Positions 1-6,353 of a DNA stretch of 6,353 nt are shown here, one piece after another. The first letter of the stretch is position 1, and every line of letters starts with the position of its first letter. This DNA comes from Ilumatobacteraceae bacterium (GTDB lineage: Bacteria > Actinomycetota > Acidimicrobiia > Acidimicrobiales > Ilumatobacteraceae): the NCBI GenBank assembly GCA_016650435.1, contig JAENVT010000019.1, positions 1 to 6,353 of the forward strand, in the 5' to 3' direction. A program made the translations under genes and the position numbers. The notes beneath the pieces were generated by a model. It was given only the letters and a program-made list of their open reading frames with translations, ran no database searches and was not told the origin of the DNA.

Positions 1-291
1 TTCCAGATCACTCACGGGGAGCTGATGCGATTCATTCCGTGCTACTGCGGCTGCGGTAAGGACGCCGGGCACCGCAGCAACCGCGACTGTTACGTCAAGA
101 GAATCGATGCCGATGGCACTGTGGTACTCGACTCGATGGCCCCCACTTGAGGCATCTGCCTCGGGGTCACGCGTGACGTGATGAACATGCTGAATGAAGG
201 AAAGACGCCACGAGAGATTCGCACGGCGATCGATCGCAAATACGCCAGCCACATCGACAACGCGACGCCCACGCCATACCCGTCCGCGTGA
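1..291 (+). CDS. PCYCGC (CYCXC) family selenoprotein, 5' partial, Sec encoded by TGA 148-150
   Basis: Frame 1 is open from the left edge to TGA 289-291, apart from one in-frame TGA at 148-150. The visible 96 residues carry the PCYCGC signature (residues 13-18 of the fragment), then GHRSNRDCYVK (23-33), a DGTVVLD strand, and U50-G-I-C53 followed by an EGKTPREIRTAID segment (66-78). PCYCGC proteins normally have CGIC or CGVC at that place, so the TGA falls exactly on a conserved, probably redox or metal-binding Cys, giving a UxxC motif. A hairpin fitting a bacterial SECIS follows (separate entry). Family members are often exported or lipoproteins, but the N-terminus lies outside the window, so localisation cannot be judged. 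Function is not established; the Cys-rich layout suggests metal handling or thiol redox. The stop lies 27 nt before the methyltransferase at 319, probably the same transcript. A conventional caller would miss the gene or start it at ATG 181. The alternative, a pseudogene with a nonsense mutation, is less likely. Confidence 0.88.
151..183 (+). promoter_or_regulatory. Candidate bacterial SECIS element for the PCYCGC selenoprotein
   Basis: Just after UGA 148-150, GTCA (166-169) pairs with TGAC (174-177) around the tetraloop CGCG (170-173), whose second base is G171. A lower helix CATC (153-156) with GATG (180-183) could close an internal loop. The gap from UGA to the loop is 19 nt (151-169). This fits the general bacterial SECIS description: short stem, G in the first two loop positions, loop about 16-37 nt after UGA. 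A second small palindrome, GAGGCA/TGCCTC (149-162), overlaps the UGA and could compete. The pairing was done by eye, without an energy calculation. Confidence 0.65.
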
Positions 292-318
292 CGTCGGGAG
301 CGCGTGAGAGGCTGAGAC

Positions 319-945
319 ATGGGCTTCTATGCCGACCGCCTCTTTCCACCGATCATGAATCGCGTGATGAACACCAAACAGAAGCGGCGTATCCGCTCAC
401 GAGTGTGCGCCCCGCTGTCCGGTGACGTCATCGAGATCGGCTTCGGCACAGGACTGAACCTGCCCCACCTGCCGCCCGGGGTCGAGGTCTTGCGGGCCGT
501 CGACCCGCTCGAACGCGGCAGAGTCCTCGCGTCCGAGCGCATCGCGAAAAGCGCAGTCCCGGTGGAATTCGTCGGACTGGACGGGCAGTCGCTGCCACTC
601 GACGACGATTCCGTCGATGCGGCGCTTTCCACGTGGACACTGTGCAGCATTCCCAATCCCGTCGCCGCCGTGCGCGAAATCGGCCGGGTGCTCCGTCCGG
701 GAGGGATCTTCCGGTTCGTCGAACATGGCCGATCGCCGGACCCGCAAGTACTCAAGTGGCAGAAGCGCCTGAACCCCGTGCAGCGTCGAGTTGCCTGCGG
801 CTGCACCCTTGACCGAGACATCCCGTCGATCATCGAGGAAGCTGGACTTCGCGTCGACTCTTTGGACACCTACTATGCGAAGGGAGATCCAAAGACCTTC
901 GGCTGGACGTTCGAAGGTACCGCGCGCGCCAGCCTTGGCGAGTAG
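319..945 (+). CDS. Class I SAM-dependent methyltransferase, METTL7/thiol-methyltransferase-like
   Basis: A 208-residue Rossmann methyltransferase, probably cytoplasmic. Motif I is VIEIGFGTG (residues 37-45), the acidic ribose-binding residue is D62 in AVDP, the motif II/III region is SVDAALSTWTLCSI (98-111), and RVLRPGG (123-129) is the classic UbiE/Methyltransf_11 segment. The tail has FVEHG (133-137) and GCTLDR (161-166), followed by IPSIIEEAGL. This GC-x-L-x-R pattern resembles METTL7/TMT1 proteins, which methylate alkyl thiols and hydrogen sulfide; the substrate here is inferred only. ATG 319 is preceded by GAGAGG (306-311) at 7 nt. It follows the PCYCGC selenoprotein by 27 nt and probably shares its mRNA. 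The TAG stop directly abuts the stop of the convergent rhodanese. It is full length with no internal stops. A ubiquinone or phospholipid methyltransferase is a less likely alternative. Confidence 0.85.
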   Translation: MGFYADRLFPPIMNRVMNTKQKRRIRSRVCAPLSGDVIEIGFGTGLNLPHLPPGVEVLRAVDPLERGRVLASERIAKSAVPVEFVGLDGQSLPLDDDSVDAALSTWTLCSIPNPVAAVREIGRVLRPGGIFRFVEHGRSPDPQVLKWQKRLNPVQRRVACGCTLDRDIPSIIEEAGLRVDSLDTYYAKGDPKTFGWTFEGTARASLGE

Positions 946-1371
946 TCACCGCTCAGGACTTCGGCCGGCCGGCCGCCTCAGGGCGTGTTCAGTGAACGCG
1001 TGCCAGGCTTGAAAGCCACCGACGAGGTCGGTCGCCCGGTGTAGCCCGACGTCGTGTAGCAGTGCGGCGGCGAGGCTCGATTGGTAGCCCTCGTTGCAGA
1101 CGATCACGATGCGAGCGTCGTATTCGGCCGCTTCGGCGATGTGGTGCTCGCAGGCTGGGTCGGGTCGCCACTCGAGGACGTTGCGGTCGATGACGATCGA
1201 ACCGGGTAGATCCCCGTCACGCGTGCGCTGCTCGACGGGCCGGATGTCGATGATCACAGCACCGGCGGTCCGCTCATTTTCGAGTGCGTCGGGTTCGACT
1301 CGGTCGAGGCGGGCGCGGGCGACGGTGAGGATCTCGTCGATCGAGCGAGTGTCGCGGCCCCGATCGTTCAT
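946..1371 (-). CDS. Single-domain rhodanese-like sulfurtransferase
   Basis: A 141-residue protein with one rhodanese domain: AGAVIIDIRP (residues 36-45), DLPGSIVIDRNVLEWR (54-69, the usual 'GHIPGA' position), and the active-site loop VCNEGYQSS (91-99) with catalytic Cys C92. It ends with DLVGGFQAWHAF (115-126), the usual rhodanese C-terminal signature. Rhodaneses carry sulfane sulfur (sometimes selenium) as a cysteine persulfide and pass it to acceptors. The first 30 residues form a polar helical extension. It is the last gene of the leftward operon: its ATG (1371-1369) overlaps the TGA of the MFS gene by 4 nt, implying translational coupling. The stop directly adjoins the stop of the rightward methyltransferase. 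No signal peptide is seen, so it is probably cytoplasmic. Confidence 0.9.
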   Translation of the reverse strand: MNDRGRDTRSIDEILTVARARLDRVEPDALENERTAGAVIIDIRPVEQRTRDGDLPGSIVIDRNVLEWRPDPACEHHIAEAAEYDARIVIVCNEGYQSSLAAALLHDVGLHRATDLVGGFQAWHAFTEHALRRPAGRSPER

Positions 1372-2621
1372 CTCGGATGCGTTTCGTACATGCGCATGGC
1401 AGCGACTATGCCAGACGCTGCGGTGAGTGCGGCGACGGCGTAGATCGCGGCGGGGATGGAGATCAGGTCAGCGAGGATGCCGGCGAGGAGTGCTCCGATG
1501 GCGAAGCCGCCGTCGCGCCACAGCCGATAGACGCCGACCGAGCGGGCGCGCCATGTCGGGTGGGCGACGTCGCCGATCGCCGCGAGCAGCGTTGGGTAGA
1601 CCATTGCGGTGCCGGCGCCGAGCACCATCGCACCGACCGCCCATGCCGCGAAGTTGCCGGTGGCGGCGATCCAAGCGATGGCGACTGCTTGGGTGAGCAT
1701 GCCGCCGACGATCAATGGTTTGCGGCCGATCCGATCGGACAGTCCACCGGTGTACAGCTGGCCGAGGCCCCACACGGCGGGGTAGAGCGCGGCGAGTACG
1801 CCGATCCGTCCGATCGACATCCCGGCGTTTGCGAAGAAGATCGGGAACAGTCCCCATGCGAGTCCGTCGTTGAGGTTGTTGACGAGGCCGGCCTGCGAGC
1901 ACGACGACAATGCCTTGTCGGTGAAGGAGGTGAGTCGAAAGATGTCGCCGGTGGTCAGTGTGGCGCGGTGGGAGTCGGTGGTAGCGACGTGGTTGGCGGC
2001 TTCGTAGCGGGCATGACCACGGGTCTCGCGCACGAAGAACACTGACAATCCGAGACCGAGACCGGCATAGGCGATGCCGAGGAAGAACGGCTCCGGGCGC
2101 AGTCCAGCGTGCTCGGCGATAAAACCGGTCGCCAGTGCGGTGATGGCGACGGCGCCGTAACCAGCTGCTTCGTTCATTCCCATCGCGAACCCGCGTCTCG
2201 TCGGCCCGACGAGGTCGATCTTCATGATCACTGTCGTCGACCATGTGAGCCCTTGGTTGACGCCGAGCAGAACGTTGGCGAAGATCACCCAGCCCCAGCT
2301 TGGTGCCCAGATCAGCAACAGCGGGACCGGTATGGCAATGATCCACCCGGCGACGAGAACGGGCTTGCGGCCGTAGCGGTCGGAGAGCGTGCCGGCGAAG
2401 AAGTTGGTCACTGCCTTGACTGCGCCGAAGGCGACGATGAACGTCAGGGTCGAGGTGAAAGCAGTGAGCCCGAACTCTTGCTTGGCGAGCAGCGGGAGGA
2501 CAGTGCGTTCCTGGCCGATCATGCCACCGACGAGTGCGTTGACGCCGACGAGGAGGGAAAACTGGGCGATGTTCTCCTTCAGACCGAGCCGCAGGGATGC
2601 CTCTGTAGTCGGCGTGCTCAC
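1368..2621 (-). CDS. MFS transporter, 12-TM type
   Basis: A 417-residue integral membrane protein of the Major Facilitator Superfamily. The loop 2-3 motif A is clear (AGTLSDRYGRKPV, residues 76-88) and its pseudo-repeat occurs in the second half (TGGLSDRIGRKPL, 291-303). Hydrophobic stretches on either side fit two six-helix bundles, with a polar cytoplasmic loop around 200-235. The segment SSCSQAGLVNNLNDGLAWG (239-257) at the start of the second half is distinctive, and C241 could contact a thiophilic substrate. The start is GTG (2621-2619), overlapping the TGA of the upstream MBL-rhodanese gene by 4 nt, and the stop overlaps the next ATG by 4 nt, so the three genes form one coupled operon. 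The substrate is unknown; the context suggests export of a sulfur, selenium or arsenic compound. It is not recognisable to me as ArsJ or another named arsenic exporter. Confidence 0.9.
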   Translation of the reverse strand: MSTPTTEASLRLGLKENIAQFSLLVGVNALVGGMIGQERTVLPLLAKQEFGLTAFTSTLTFIVAFGAVKAVTNFFAGTLSDRYGRKPVLVAGWIIAIPVPLLLIWAPSWGWVIFANVLLGVNQGLTWSTTVIMKIDLVGPTRRGFAMGMNEAAGYGAVAITALATGFIAEHAGLRPEPFFLGIAYAGLGLGLSVFFVRETRGHARYEAANHVATTDSHRATLTTGDIFRLTSFTDKALSSCSQAGLVNNLNDGLAWGLFPIFFANAGMSIGRIGVLAALYPAVWGLGQLYTGGLSDRIGRKPLIVGGMLTQAVAIAWIAATGNFAAWAVGAMVLGAGTAMVYPTLLAAIGDVAHPTWRARSVGVYRLWRDGGFAIGALLAGILADLISIPAAIYAVAALTAASGIVAAMRMYETHPR

Positions 2622-3964
2622 CGTGCGGTCTCGAGCAGCTTGCCGGTCGAGTCGGACCAGGTCTCGGGTCCGCCGTCGAGTACCGCGACGTCGCCCTTTC
2701 CGCGAGCCGTGAGGATGCTGGCAGCGGTCATTGCACGTTCACCGTGTCCGCACATCACGCTCACTGGTCCCGGCCTGAGGCGGGCGTCTTCGACGGCGCC
2801 GAGTTCGATGTTGAGCGCGCCGGGCACGTGGCCGGAGGCGTACTCGTTGGCCTGGCGCACATCGATCACCTGACCAGTCATCCCGGCGGGGTCGACGAGT
2901 GGGATCGTGCTCACCGGCCGCCCAGAATCGGTCCACGCCTCGATTCCACCGGCGAGTTCACCGACGAGGTGCTCGTGGCCGACATCGAGGCACTGCCGGA
3001 CGAGGTCAGCGCGATCTTGACCAGGGTCGAGGACGAAAGCGAGTGCCCGGTCGGGTTCGACCAGCCAGCCGAGCCAGCTCGCGAACACCGGTCGCAGCGT
3101 GTTCGACAACGACCCCGGTATATGACCGGCGGAGAATGCCGCGACCGGTCGGGCGTCGACGACGACGCCGCCCTCGGCGAGGTGGCGCTCGACGTCGTCG
3201 GGTTGAAGCGCGGCGAGGCGAGGGACGGCGTTGTATCTCGTGGGGCCGCGGCGGTTCAATTCCGGCAGGCGAGCGAAGTAGGTGGGGAAGGTGCCGAACC
3301 CGGCGACCAATCGCTTGACGAACAGGTCTTCGTCGGTGATAGAGAACAGCGGGTTGGTGTCTCGTTCGTGGCCGAGGGTTGAGGTGCGTTGCGAGGCACC
3401 GGGTGCCGAGCAGAACGATCCCGCACCGTGCGTCGGATACACCGCGAGACCATCGGGCAATTCGTCGAATCGGCGTAACGCGCTGAACATCTCGTGCGCG
3501 AGCGGAACGGCTAGCTCGGGGCCGCACAGGTCCGTTCGTCCGACTGCGCCGACCATCAGCGAACCGCCGGAGAACAACGCGACCGGCGAACCGTTCTCGA
3601 CGAGGATGTAGGCGTGGTGGTCGGGTGTGTGACCGGGCGTCGCCACAGCGATCAATTCGATACCGTCAGCGAGGGCTACATGTTCGCTGTCGGTGACCGG
3701 TCGATGTGGTGATTCGAGATGTGACGCGGCTGGTGCGACGAAGGTTGCGCCGGTCCGGTCGGCCAAGGCAGGGCTGCCGGTCACATAGTCGGCGTGGGAA
3801 TGGGTGTCCAGTGTCCATGCCAGTCGGAGGCGGAGCCGTTCGACGAGTGCATCGTGGGCGCTCGGGAATCGCGGTGGGTCGACGACAGCGGCGGTGCCGT
3901 CACCGAGGTCGATCACGTACGACGAGTGTCCGAGGCCCTCATCGACAAAGTCGTACACGCGCAT
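2618..3964 (-). CDS. Metallo-beta-lactamase fold protein with two rhodanese domains (persulfide dioxygenase-like)
   Basis: A 448-residue three-domain protein. The MBL domain (about 1-250) has THSHADY (54-60), PGHTPDHH (110-117), GRTDL (142-146) and YPTHGAG (176-182). By analogy with ETHE1/CstB persulfide dioxygenases, H55, H112 and D145 would bind mononuclear Fe(II). The residue after HxHxD is Y60, as in the Blh-type branch, not His. Rhodanese 1 (about 257-345) has lost its catalytic Cys: the loop reads FVLDPGQDR (310-318). Rhodanese 2 (about 362-448) is intact, with C405 in MCGHGER. Such fusions oxidise glutathione or other low-molecular-weight persulfides to sulfite or thiosulfate. ATG 3964 is preceded on the minus strand by GAGAGG (3976-3971) at 6 nt. 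It is first in the leftward operon, driven from the symmetric divergent promoter. The fold is firm; the exact substrate is inferred. Confidence 0.88.
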   Translation of the reverse strand: MRVYDFVDEGLGHSSYVIDLGDGTAAVVDPPRFPSAHDALVERLRLRLAWTLDTHSHADYVTGSPALADRTGATFVAPAASHLESPHRPVTDSEHVALADGIELIAVATPGHTPDHHAYILVENGSPVALFSGGSLMVGAVGRTDLCGPELAVPLAHEMFSALRRFDELPDGLAVYPTHGAGSFCSAPGASQRTSTLGHERDTNPLFSITDEDLFVKRLVAGFGTFPTYFARLPELNRRGPTRYNAVPRLAALQPDDVERHLAEGGVVVDARPVAAFSAGHIPGSLSNTLRPVFASWLGWLVEPDRALAFVLDPGQDRADLVRQCLDVGHEHLVGELAGGIEAWTDSGRPVSTIPLVDPAGMTGQVIDVRQANEYASGHVPGALNIELGAVEDARLRPGPVSVMCGHGERAMTAASILTARGKGDVAVLDGGPETWSDSTGKLLETAR

Positions 3965-3989
3965 CGTTCACCTCTCCGATGACGACTGA

Positions 3990-4005
3990 TCAAGTGACTG
4001 CTTGA
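3990..4005. promoter_or_regulatory. Operator-like palindrome 1 (TCAA-N8-TTGA)
   Basis: TCAAG-N6-CTTGA, a perfect 5-bp inverted repeat in a 16-bp site. It matches palindrome 2 in half-site and total length and lies exactly 40 bp from it, centre to centre. It covers the start-site side of the leftward promoter and touches the -35 of the rightward one. AT-rich dyads of this type are typical of ArsR/SmtB repressors, and the likely ligand is the ArsR-rhodanese encoded next door. Confidence 0.7.
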
Positions 4006-4030
4006 ATGTATCCCTTGCTGCCCCAATATT
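4002..4030 (+). promoter_or_regulatory. Predicted promoter for the ArsR-rhodanese/methyltransferase operon
   Basis: The -35 is TTGAAT (4002-4007) and the -10 is AATATT (4025-4030), with a 17-bp spacer; each hexamer matches the sigma70-type consensus at 4 of 6 bases. Transcription would start near 4037, giving a leader of about 34 nt to GTG 4071. It shares its spacer with the leftward promoter, and palindrome 2 overlaps its start region. Predicted by eye only. Confidence 0.5.
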
Positions 4031-4033
4031 CAA
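4005..4033 (-). promoter_or_regulatory. Predicted divergent promoter for the MBL-rhodanese/MFS/rhodanese operon
   Basis: Reading the minus strand, the -35 is TTGAAT (4033-4028) and the -10 is TACATT (4010-4005), with a 17-bp spacer. It lies on top of the rightward promoter in mirror image, so RNA polymerase probably cannot occupy both at once. Palindrome 1 overlaps its -10/start region and palindrome 2 its -35. Predicted by eye only. Confidence 0.5.
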
Positions 4034-4046
4034 GTAGTAGTTTGAA
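4029..4046. promoter_or_regulatory. Operator-like palindrome 2 (TTCAA-N8-TTGAA)
   Basis: TTCAA (4029-4033) and TTGAA (4042-4046) form a perfect 5-bp inverted repeat. Its 16-bp core (4030-4045) begins TCAAGT and ends TTGA, as in palindrome 1. It overlaps the -10/start of the rightward promoter and the -35 of the leftward one, so a bound repressor would silence both arms and autoregulate its own gene. Confidence 0.72.
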
Positions 4047-4070
4047 CACCGATGAGACGGAGACTTCAGG

Positions 4071-4739
4071 GTGGGTGACCGCGCAGCGAAGGACGCACTC
4101 TTCGACGCGTTCGCCGAGGTTGCCAAAGCGTTGGCCAGTGGACGTCGCGCCGAGATCGTCGATGTCCTCGCTCAGGGCGAACGGTCCGTCGAGCAACTCG
4201 CCGACGAAATCGGACAAAGTGTGGCTAACACCTCGCATCATCTGCGGGCGATGGCTAGAGCTGGTGTGCTTCGTACCCGCCGCGAGGGCACCCGGATCGT
4301 GTACATGCTGGCGAGCGACCGTGTCGGCGAAGTGTGGGCAGCCTTGCGCGACATCGCGACCGAACACGTCGCCGGCATCAACGAACTCGCCGACGCGTAT
4401 GTCGGAGATCGCGCCGGATTGGAACCGGTGACCCGCCGCGAACTCGAAGAGCGTCTCAAAGCCGGTGACACCATCGTGCTCGATGTTCGCCCATCGGCCG
4501 AGTTCGAGGCCGGCCACATCCCCGGTGCCAGGTCCGTGCCGATCGGCGAGCTGCGCCGGCTTCGTTCGGTGTCAAAGGACACCGAGATCGTCGCTTACTG
4601 CCGCGGGCCGTACTGCGTGTACGCGGACGAGGCCGTGCGCCAACTCCGCAGACGCGGGTTCAACGCCCGTCGTCTCGAGGACGGATTCCCTGAATGGAAA
4701 CGAGCCGGCCTACCGATTGCCGCCGGAACGGGAGGATGA
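4071..4739 (+). CDS. ArsR-family transcriptional regulator fused to a rhodanese domain
   Basis: A 222-residue repressor. Residues 1-105 form a winged helix-turn-helix of ArsR/SmtB type: SVEQLADEIGQSVANTSHHLRAMARAG (39-65) includes the recognition helix, followed by the wing (VLRTRREGTRIVYML). The family's usual ELCVC metal-binding Cys are absent and the HTH half contains no Cys at all. Residues 116-222 form a rhodanese domain: TIVLDVRPSAEFEAGHIPGA (134-153) and an active loop YCRGPYC (176-182) with catalytic C177 and a second Cys C182, ending LEDGFPEWKRAGLP. A plausible mechanism is release of DNA when C177 becomes persulfidated (or bound by selenium or As), perhaps through a C177-C182 bridge; this is inference. 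The start is GTG 4071, with GGAG (4059-4062) 8 nt upstream. The two palindromes just upstream are its likely operators. Its stop lies 2 nt before the next ATG, and the next RBS is within its last codons. Confidence 0.92.
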   Translation: MGDRAAKDALFDAFAEVAKALASGRRAEIVDVLAQGERSVEQLADEIGQSVANTSHHLRAMARAGVLRTRREGTRIVYMLASDRVGEVWAALRDIATEHVAGINELADAYVGDRAGLEPVTRRELEERLKAGDTIVLDVRPSAEFEAGHIPGARSVPIGELRRLRSVSKDTEIVAYCRGPYCVYADEAVRQLRRRGFNARRLEDGFPEWKRAGLPIAAGTGG

Positions 4740-4741
4740 CC

Positions 4742-5515
4742 ATGTCCAACGAAACACTCGTCGATGTCGACACCCTTCGCACACAGGTACGAGACAAGTA
4801 CCGTGACGTCGCCAACGACCCACACGGCACCCACCACTTCCACACTGGCCGCCCACTTGCGACCCGGCTCGGCTACGACCAAGCCGTCGTCGACGCTCTA
4901 CCGGATCGGGCGGTCGAATCGTTTGCCGGAGTCGGCAACCCATTCTCGCTCCGGCGACTCGAGCCCGGCGAGCGTGTCGTCGACGTCGGCTCCGGCGCAG
5001 GGTTTGACTCCTTTATTGCCGCAACCCAAGTTGCGCCGACCGGCCGTGTCATCGGGATCGACATGACCTTAGAGATGCTCGCCAAATCGCGAGCCACCGC
5101 CGGACAACTCGACTTCGATCATGTCGAGTTCCGCGAGGGCCTCGCCGAAACAATGCCCGTCGAGGATGGATGGGCAGACGTCGTCATCTCCAACGGCGTG
5201 ATCAACCTGTGCGCCGACAAGCGAGCGGTGTTCGCCGAGATCCATCGCGTGTTGCGCCCCGGTGGTGTGTTGCAGTTCGCCGATATTGCCAACGGACGCC
5301 CGGTGCCGATCGAGGCGATGCGCGACGTCGATCTGTGGACCGGTTGAATAGCCGGAGGGCTGCCCCGTGCGGGCTGGCAACAAATGCTCGAAGACTCCGG
5401 GTTCGAAGACGTCACCATCGGTCCACCCGTCGACACCTTCGGTGGTGCTATCGGTGAAGCCAACGCCCGTTCGTTCGAGGTGTTCGGCTACGCGTTCCTC
5501 GCCCGCCGGACCTAA
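4742..5515 (+). CDS. ArsM-like SAM methyltransferase, selenoprotein with Sec202 (TGA 5345-5347)
   Basis: Read through TGA 5345-5347, the protein is 257 residues, a normal size for bacterial ArsM-like enzymes; without readthrough it stops at 201 and loses its C-terminal domain. Motif I is VVDVGSGAGFD (79-89), the acidic ribose-binding residue is D107 (GID), and RVLRPGG (169-175) is the usual post-motif. The segment DLWTG-U-IAGGLPRAGW (197-212) aligns with the ArsM region carrying the third arsenic-binding Cys (about C224 of the algal CmArsM). After the UGA, 55 more codons keep family features (LEDSGFEDVTI, then VDTFGG) to TAA 5513-5515. Other usual ArsM Cys are replaced: GVGNP (63-67) has Val for Cys and SNGVINL (150-156) has Gly, leaving C157 as the only Cys. 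The substrate may therefore not be arsenite; a selenium, sulfur or other metalloid species is possible. ATG 4742 has GGAGG (4731-4735) 6 nt upstream. A longer start at 4694 inside arsR is unlikely. Confidence 0.9.
5348..5378 (+). promoter_or_regulatory. Candidate bacterial SECIS element for the ArsM-like selenoprotein
   Basis: After UGA 5345-5347, GCCC (5362-5365) pairs with GGGC (5371-5374) around the loop CGTGC (5366-5370), whose second base is G5367. C5360-G5376 extends the stem across a T-T mismatch, and GCC (5351-5353) can pair with GGC (5376-5378) as an alternative lower helix. The gap from UGA to the loop is 18 nt, nearly the same as the 19 nt in the PCYCGC gene, and both loops begin with CG. 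All four core pairs are G-C. Paired by eye. Confidence 0.68.
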
Positions 5516-5544
5516 CGAAAGAACCAACCAGAAAGGAGACTGCG

Positions 5545-5913
5545 ATGGCAGTTGATGACAAGGTCGTAGTCGGCCAAACCCACGCGGCGGATGACGCCGA
5601 GGCAGTGCTGATCGGGTACCTGCTCGGGGTCGAGGCATTGCGCGCCGGGAAGCAGGCCCTCATGTGGCTCACCAAAGACGGTGTACTACTTGCCACCAAG
5701 GGCTACTCCGACGACATCGTGGTGCCCGGAGCGCCGTCAATCAAAGATCTTCATGCCGAGTACATCGACAAAGGTGGCCGGTTCTTCGCCTGCCCCGTGT
5801 GTGTGAAGACTCACGGTCTCGACGCAGCCGAATGGGTGCAGGGCGCTGAAGTCAAAGGCGCCCCGTCGCTGTACGAGTTCACTGCCGGTGGAGCCTTGAT
5901 ATTCAACTACTGA
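5545..5913 (+). CDS. DsrE/DsrF-like family protein with CPVC motif
   Basis: A 122-residue small alpha/beta protein, probably cytoplasmic. The start has a short strand (KVVVGQTHAADDAEAVLIGYLLGVEAL, residues 6-32), then the helix-strand pattern typical of DsrE/F folds: QALMWLTKDGVLLATKGY (37-54), SIKDLHAEYIDKGGRFFACPVCVKTHGL (65-92) and a C-terminal ALIFNY strand. The Cys pair C83-P-V-C86 lies where DsrE/TusD-type proteins carry the Cys that receives and passes on sulfane sulfur. In this cluster it is a natural partner for the rhodaneses. ATG 5545 is preceded by AAGGAG (5533-5538) at 6 nt. It lies 29 nt after the ArsM-like stop, with no clear terminator between them, so it is probably in the same operon. 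The specific acceptor is unknown. Confidence 0.87.
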   Translation: MAVDDKVVVGQTHAADDAEAVLIGYLLGVEALRAGKQALMWLTKDGVLLATKGYSDDIVVPGAPSIKDLHAEYIDKGGRFFACPVCVKTHGLDAAEWVQGAEVKGAPSLYEFTAGGALIFNY

Positions 5914-5944
5914 TCGACAGTTGAAGCCGGCACAACGATCAGTA
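5902..5944. repeat. Two overlapping, mutually exclusive inverted repeats after the DsrE-like gene
   Basis: IR-a: TTCAACT (5902-5908) and AGTTGAA (5919-5925), perfect 7 bp with a 10-nt spacer. IR-b: TACTGATCG (5908-5916) and CGATCAGTA (5936-5944), perfect 9 bp with a 19-nt spacer. The left arm of IR-b lies mostly in the loop of IR-a, so the RNA could form one or the other, or a pseudoknot. The DsrE stop codon (5911-5913) is inside. There is no T-run after either, so this is not a standard intrinsic terminator. The TTCAA/TTGAA ends recall the operator half-sites, but the spacing is longer (14 rather than 8). Confidence 0.6.
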
Positions 5945-5977
5945 CCCGACGAGCGTTCAAAAAGGAATGGCCCGACC

Positions 5978-6353
5978 ATGACCAACTTCAATTCGGCACC
6001 GCACTTCGGGCTCGTGCTGGACTGCGCTGATCCCGAACGCCTCGCCGAATTCTGGGCCGAGGCGCTGGGCTACGCCAACGTCGGCTCTGCCGGTGTCTAC
6101 GTCGCGCTGTACCCGCGAGAAGGCAACGGCCCGAAGTTGCTGCTGCAACGAGTGACCGAACCAAAGGCGACCAAGAATCGGATGCACCTCGACATCGAGG
6201 TTCCCGACATCGATGTCGAAGCCGACCGCCTGTCCGGCCTCGGCGCACAACGGGTCAGCGACGACACATGCAGCGAACACGGCAGCACCTGGATCCTGAT
6301 GGCTGATCCCGAAGGCAACGAGTTCTGCATCTGCGACAACGGAAGCCCCGCAA
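5978..6353 (+). CDS. VOC (glyoxalase/dioxygenase) superfamily protein, 3' partial
   Basis: 125 codons are visible and the frame is still open at the right edge; VOC proteins of this type are often about 120-130 residues, so little is probably missing. The N-terminal half begins HFGLVLDCADPERLAEFWAEALGY (residues 9-32), the common betaalphabetabetabeta start of the Glyoxalase_6/PhnB-like group. The second half has RMHLDIEVPDIDVEADRL (68-85) and STWILMADPEGNEFCIC (103-119), with H70 and E115 near the usual metal-ligand positions. Substrate unknown; VOC proteins include glyoxalase I, extradiol dioxygenases, thiol transferases and C-As lyase (ArsI), but I see no ArsI-type vicinal Cys pair. ATG 5978 follows AGGA (5963-5966) at 11 nt, a rather long gap. 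It is probably the fourth gene of the operon, 64 nt after the DsrE-like gene across an inverted-repeat region. Confidence 0.82.
   Translation, partial: MTNFNSAPHFGLVLDCADPERLAEFWAEALGYANVGSAGVYVALYPREGNGPKLLLQRVTEPKATKNRMHLDIEVPDIDVEADRLSGLGAQRVSDDTCSEHGSTWILMADPEGNEFCICDNGSPA

Follow-up and report, generated by a model that had tools for sequence, protein, structure and literature searches.

Selenocysteine (Sec) in methyltransferases of the ArsM type has been catalogued before. A 2026 review lists an arsenite methyltransferase selenoprotein under the model NF008823, with the motif UxxG (WP_011987699.1; its reference 87, Fomenko 2007), together with fused ArsM families (PMC13188914), and arsM was named among selenoprotein families in 2008 (PMC2398784). 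In Geodermatophilaceae, a tRNA-Sec with anticodon CUA has been described, and formate dehydrogenase, a UGSC protein and AhpC are given there as UAG-encoded selenoproteins (PMC5330540). For ArsM itself, a published criterion asks for at least three of the cysteines at positions 44, 72, 174 and 224 (PMC5552862). Against this background we describe a gene of an Ilumatobacteraceae bacterium (assembly GCA_016650435.1, contig JAENVT010000019.1, positions 1 to 6,353; this whole stretch of 6,353 nucleotides is called the window). Its product is predicted to be an S-adenosylmethionine (SAM) methyltransferase of 257 residues with the ArsM fold and Sec at residue 202. An initial annotation, made from the letters of the window alone, had proposed Sec in an ArsM-like enzyme, which, as the catalogues just cited show, is in itself not new. 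What appears new, as far as our searches show, is the subfamily with one Sec, together with its operon and the form that uses UAG, none of which was recognised among the papers listed by searches of the open-licence literature; four terms searched for in the main text of the Deep-Sep paper (PMC12013277) do not occur there.

The gene lies on the forward strand at 4742..5515. It runs from ATG 4742, preceded by GGAGG at 4731..4735 (forward strand), read from the sequence as its likely ribosome-binding site, to TAA 5513-5515. The frame is continuous except for one TGA at 5345-5347, which is codon 202; 55 codons separate this TGA from the TAA, and the next ATG, that of a DsrE gene at 5545, comes 29 nucleotides further on. 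The protein matches Methyltransf_31 (E value 5.7e-29) and keeps an intact class I fold and SAM-binding motif (GSGAGFD). The initial annotation had seen a TGA interrupting a single ArsM-like frame, and this is confirmed, the same stop and the same C-terminus being found in relatives. It had also predicted that standard annotation would truncate the enzyme, and so it does: among the matches listed (of 8000 scored), 116 of 120 database homologues are 201-224 residues long, covering 78% of the query, and the three short homologues that were opened terminate at DLWTG.

A first contig scan for relatives returned 11 loci (L001-L011). Eight of these (L001-L007 and L011), from named metagenome-assembled genomes (MAGs), have TGA at the site of codon 202 followed by the same C-terminus. 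L009 and L010 are Cys-type ArsM, and in L008 an indel shifts the frame ahead of the codon, yet TGA is present at the site. In the class of genome G001, 92 of 395 genomes match at E 1e-40 and 23 have a TGA-bearing copy, which brings 21 more loci; the class of G008 (374 genomes, 4 matching at E 1e-70) contributes another, L086. Because 30 further loci carry TGA at the same codon, its presence there is not due to chance. In an alignment of the window with 29 TGA loci (L014 was removed as a duplicate of L001 and two second copies were left out), the TGA falls in one column, and Cys stands at residue 202 in all ten other aligned rows. The sequence after the codon has a ratio of nonsynonymous to synonymous substitution rates (dN/dS) of 0.05-0.20 in 11 of 12 pairs with the window, the twelfth (L006) being saturated at synonymous sites. 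To judge from these comparisons, the codons past the TGA evolve as protein, under purifying selection. The initial annotation had allowed for a base-call error and for homologues ending naturally at codon 202. Neither is borne out: separate assemblies share the TGA and six genomes have TAG in its place, and the protein of the relatives goes on beyond the codon. Four remoter copies (L039, L040, G229:C244 and G287:C115; 45-49% identity) were also seen, with one TGA each; in L039 and L040 it is at the same site and the hairpin discussed below is fully paired.

The TAG form comes from the family of G008, the Geodermatophilaceae, where a search at E 1e-60 found matches in seven of 112 genomes. Six have TAG at the site, within the same words (DLWTG-stop-IAGGLPR), the remaining match being the G008 copy with its shifted frame. 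In each of the six TAG genomes there is a tRNA-Sec with anticodon CUA (CTA in DNA), scoring 65.3-66.9 bits where the cut-off is 47. Among the 31 TGA genomes (including G008), the anticodon of tRNA-Sec was read in 24 and is TCA in every one of them; no tRNA-Sec was identified in the other seven (G005, G006, G043, G229, G287, G364 and G372), in a search that scored only the 83 top first-look candidates of each genome. As far as sequence can tell, this agreement between codon and tRNA-Sec anticodon is the strongest evidence for reading the codon as Sec, and it is hard to explain otherwise. The genome counts are not independent trials, the change from TGA to TAG being one evolutionary event. In a quick tree whose branches are partly open, the TAG rows and P0092 (Blastococcus deserti), a full-length protein with Trp at the Sec site, form a starred group nested among the TGA rows. 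One TAG genome, G464 (L054, L060), has two tRNA-Sec genes, with anticodons TCA and CTA, which suggests either that it decodes both codons or that its bin is mixed. Another full-length member, P0094, has Leu at the Sec site; the Trp codon of P0092 and the Leu codon of P0094 could each be one base from TAG. A separate observation concerns L008:6001-6625, a frame-shifted copy of 85% identity in a MAG labelled Geodermatophilaceae. It has TGA at the site, and the MAG has a TCA tRNA-Sec, which sets it apart from its family; contig or bin may carry the wrong label.

With the stop conserved, the codon matched by its tRNA and Cys in the sister branches, the initial proposal of Sec at codon 202 holds, and we regard this reading of TGA 5345-5347 as almost certain. 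Two other ways of reading the codon deserve attention. The gene callers that end the 116 listed homologues at this point treat the TGA as a true stop, giving a 201-residue protein or marking a decaying gene. This is very hard to reconcile with purifying selection past the codon and with TAG copies accompanied by a CUA tRNA-Sec, and a protein ending here would lose the final two core strands of the predicted structure (residues 221-226 and 248-256); we give it next to no credence. Readthrough with a different amino acid, through Trp suppression or, at TAG, with pyrrolysine (Pyl), can invoke the Trp of P0092 and the fact that ARAGORN calls the six CUA tRNAs tRNA-Pyl. It is equally far-fetched, since these tRNAs fit the tRNA-Sec model above its cut-off and Cys is the usual replacement in sister branches.

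The machinery required for Sec was looked for in the genomes of the relatives. Ten of the 11 genomes that yielded the first loci have SelA, the exception, G010, carrying the Cys form. In the class of G001, SelA is found at E 1e-30 in 20 of the 23 TGA genomes against 240 of the 372 others (one-sided p 0.019), which separates the two groups only weakly because SelA is widespread in that class (260 of 395 genomes). No SelA was found in G388, but this genome has a TCA tRNA-Sec (L044); in G372 and G229 neither SelA, at the same threshold, nor tRNA-Sec was found. A lack of Sec machinery in the genome, which the initial annotation had named as refuting its proposal, is not what the relatives show: most of their genomes have SelA and tRNA-Sec.

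A candidate bacterial selenocysteine insertion sequence (SECIS) hairpin lies at 5362..5374 on the forward strand, nucleotides 18-30 from the T of the TGA, and consists of a GCCC stem, a CGTGC loop and a GGGC stem. The G23-U24 of its loop agree with the numbering of the E. coli fdhF element. In the register of the window, where nucleotides 18-21 pair with 27-30, the stem is complete in all five TAG sequences examined and in 14 of 31 TGA sequences. Another 15 TGA sequences form the stem in a shifted register, with 6 or 7 of the 7 pairs between nucleotides 13-19 and 25-31; 13 of them have CGTGT or CGTGC as the loop. Two TGA sequences, L011 and L023, have neither stem. Neither hairpin, so defined, was found in 12 Cys sequences. 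For the shifted register, 96.4% of cells are paired in 12 distinct sequences, a figure reached in none of 500 shuffles. Covariation shows at pair 14-30, where six of these sequences have G-C and four have C-G, and at pair 15-29, which a single sequence has in the opposite orientation; two pairs changed on both sides were, however, attained in 47 of 500 shuffles. Three of the four pairs of the window's register are nevertheless kept in 8 of the 12 Cys sequences, and the 36 stop-codon sequences amount to only 14 distinct hairpin stretches. Evidence against the hairpin comes from the folding energy after the codon, which in the window as elsewhere is no lower than in synonymous codon shuffles. 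Run on 29 distinct TGA segments together, RNAalifold returned almost no structure, because the two registers were mixed; the split into registers was made after this result had been seen, so that the hairpin counts are not blind. An Rfam scan of the window gave four matches, each below its gathering score. The candidate hairpin downstream of the TGA would probably aid Sec insertion.

What the enzyme does is a different matter. Sec202 aligns with Cys224 of the arsenic site of CmArsM, which bears out the initial view that the replaced residue is an arsenic-binding Cys of ArsM. Cys72 and Cys174 of CmArsM correspond to Val64 and Gly152 in the window protein, where Cys157 is the sole Cys; none comes earlier, so there is no equivalent of Cys44. 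At the first two of these sites the stop-codon rows are alike, with Val, Ile or Met at the Cys72 site (no Cys in the 27 with a letter) and Gly at the Cys174 site (no Cys in the 29 with a letter). The window protein, having V64, G152, U202 and no Cys before 157, therefore falls short of the three cysteines that the criterion of PMC5552862 asks for, and it scores 218.3 bits with the NCBIfam ArsM model NF008823, below the curated cut-off of 263. Its predicted structure has the class I SAM methyltransferase fold; the top three structural matches are ArsM, other ArsM entries coming lower. On this structural model it is an ArsM-fold enzyme; the view of it as an arsenic enzyme is not supported.

The neighbouring genes have a flavour of sulfur. 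Immediately upstream, overlapping the start region, 4071..4739 (forward strand) encodes an ArsR-family helix-turn-helix with a rhodanese domain, likely a sensor of sulfane sulfur or of soft metals. The next gene downstream, at 5545..5913 (forward strand), matches the DsrE family, and a glyoxalase-fold gene is also found downstream. On the reverse strand, divergent, family matches identify a metallo-beta-lactamase fold with two rhodanese stretches, persulfide-dioxygenase-like (2618..3964), a transporter of the major facilitator superfamily (1368..2621) and a rhodanese-domain protein (946..1371). An ArsR-rhodanese homologue is located near the methyltransferase in 14 relatives (L001, L003, L004, L016, L019, L020, L024, L026, L030, L033 and L047-L050), with the TGA, TAG and Cys forms alike; it was not seen in the remaining sequences fetched, of which many are short (L002, L005, L006, L007, L051, L052 and others). 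L001 adds a DsrC/TusE gene and another gene of the metallo-beta-lactamase/rhodanese type. Beyond the ArsM- and ArsR-type models, no arsenic-resistance family was detected in nine window proteins and in 20 flanking open reading frames from five relatives, 8 of these 20 matching no family at all. Because the neighbours are of the sulfur type and ArsR-type repressors responding to sulfane sulfur are known (PMC10451225, PMC12423496), we infer by analogy a role in the handling of sulfur or of a soft element. The window has no tandem repeats; a scan of 3900-6353 found no promoter, and terminator-like sites numbered 3 against 2.0 expected.

A rival reading is that of a canonical arsenite methyltransferase, in which Sec in place of Cys224 would speed arsenic binding; it is close to the initial annotation, which had seen in Sec a stronger nucleophile or ligand for As, Se or another soft element. 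The closest solved structures are indeed ArsM, codon 202 occupies the Cys224 position, the regulator is ArsR-like, and in L009 a Cys-type ArsM directly precedes a TGA-bearing paralogue. An arsenic enzyme is nonetheless poorly compatible with stop-codon rows devoid of Cys at the Cys72 and Cys174 sites, with the missing Cys44 equivalent, with a score under the ArsM cut-off, and with scanned neighbours that are of the sulfur type and include no other arsenic-resistance family; we hold this explanation to be unlikely. It is less likely still that Sec acts in thiol redox chemistry or traps metal, in a protein where methyl transfer has been lost or become secondary. Sec proteins of known function are mostly oxidoreductases (PMC2398784) and a single Cys, Cys157, accompanies the Sec, whereas the SAM motif is preserved, as is the class I fold. 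Nor do Cys157 and Sec202 form a fixed pair, an idea that was weighed and dropped: of 29 stop-codon rows, 7 have Met, Val or Ser in place of Cys157.

The explanation that we prefer, and that as a whole we find quite probable, is that of a 257-residue selenoprotein methyltransferase with the ArsM fold, in which Sec at TGA 5345-5347 serves to capture a soft atom. SelB with Sec-tRNA-Sec would bind the hairpin and insert Sec. The selenolate, close to the methyl group of SAM and deprived of the other two arsenic-site cysteines, would capture one soft atom, for which sulfane sulfur, selenide and a thiol-bound metalloid are the likeliest candidates. This atom would then be methylated, for export or volatilisation. 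Control of the gene would fall to the ArsR-rhodanese sensor, whose own gene lies immediately before it. That the enzyme is a one-ligand methyltransferase of a soft element is what we lean towards; that its substrate is sulfur or selenium rather than arsenic is nearly an even matter, slightly on the doubtful side. More tentatively, this may be a new Sec-dependent methyltransferase of soft elements: the ArsM scaffold may have traded a three-Cys arsenic site for one Sec, taken sulfane sulfur or selenide as its new target and come under the ArsR-rhodanese regulator, and its catalytic codon may have gone through a recoding series from UGA-Sec to UAG-Sec with the CUA tRNA-Sec and on to Trp, with Cys in sister branches.

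Some loci have more than one such gene. In L009, a Desulfobacteraceae MAG, the Cys-type ArsM (864-1718) is followed by its TGA-bearing paralogue at 1762-2640, with the stop at the same site. A second, different ArsM-like methyltransferase adjoins the first in L007 (5042-5884), also with TGA at the site (TGA 5600), and a different one lies upstream, with Cys at the site, in L021, L087 and L088. This tandem arrangement suggests partner enzymes. The window itself has a second in-frame TGA, at 148-150, in the gene of a PCYCGC/CYCXC protein (1-291; PF13798, E 2.5e-29). Its context is ...MAPT-U-GICLGV, and it matches NF041379, 'CYCXC family (seleno)protein', below the cut-off. The CYCXC family is listed as a selenoprotein with the motif UxxC (PMC13188914), and on sequence grounds the window likely holds two selenoprotein genes.

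Little doubt is left that a family cut by gene callers to about 201 residues is a selenoprotein, since at one and the same catalytic codon the choice between UGA and UAG follows the tRNA-Sec anticodon. It connects Sec with an operon of the sulfane-sulfur type in actinobacteria, and it has a single chalcogen where ArsM has three cysteines, so that the role of the Cys224 position becomes testable alone. Compared with CmArsM of Cyanidioschyzon (4fr0, 4fsd, 5jx7), the window protein is 29% identical over the aligned part, without equivalents of Cys72 and Cys174. With the selenoprotein of NF008823, as listed in PMC13188914, it shares the fold family and the position of Sec, its U-I-A-G fitting UxxG. 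By contrast with that entry, which is filed as ArsM, it has no counterparts of the two cysteines, scores below the cut-off and belongs to a sulfur-type operon. Its N-terminal 220-odd residues also align with NF041537, NF041536 and NF047649 (ArsM/AhpD, ArsM/DUF2284 and methyltransferase/UXPK-star; E 5e-65 to 6.2e-59), which PMC13188914 lists with the same motif. By their names and the table of that review, these have a second domain and 2 or 3 Sec, whereas the window protein has the methyltransferase domain only and one Sec; it reaches 219.6 bits with NF041537, through the methyltransferase part alone, where the two-domain cut-off is 510. Finally, the marks of the UAG-encoded selenoproteins of Geodermatophilaceae (PMC5330540), TAG at the Sec site and a CUA tRNA-Sec, are found in six relatives, not in the window. 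These TAG relatives belong to that same family of bacteria, and their methyltransferase is not one of the three proteins named in section 17 of that paper; it would join the few UAG-encoded Sec proteins named there.
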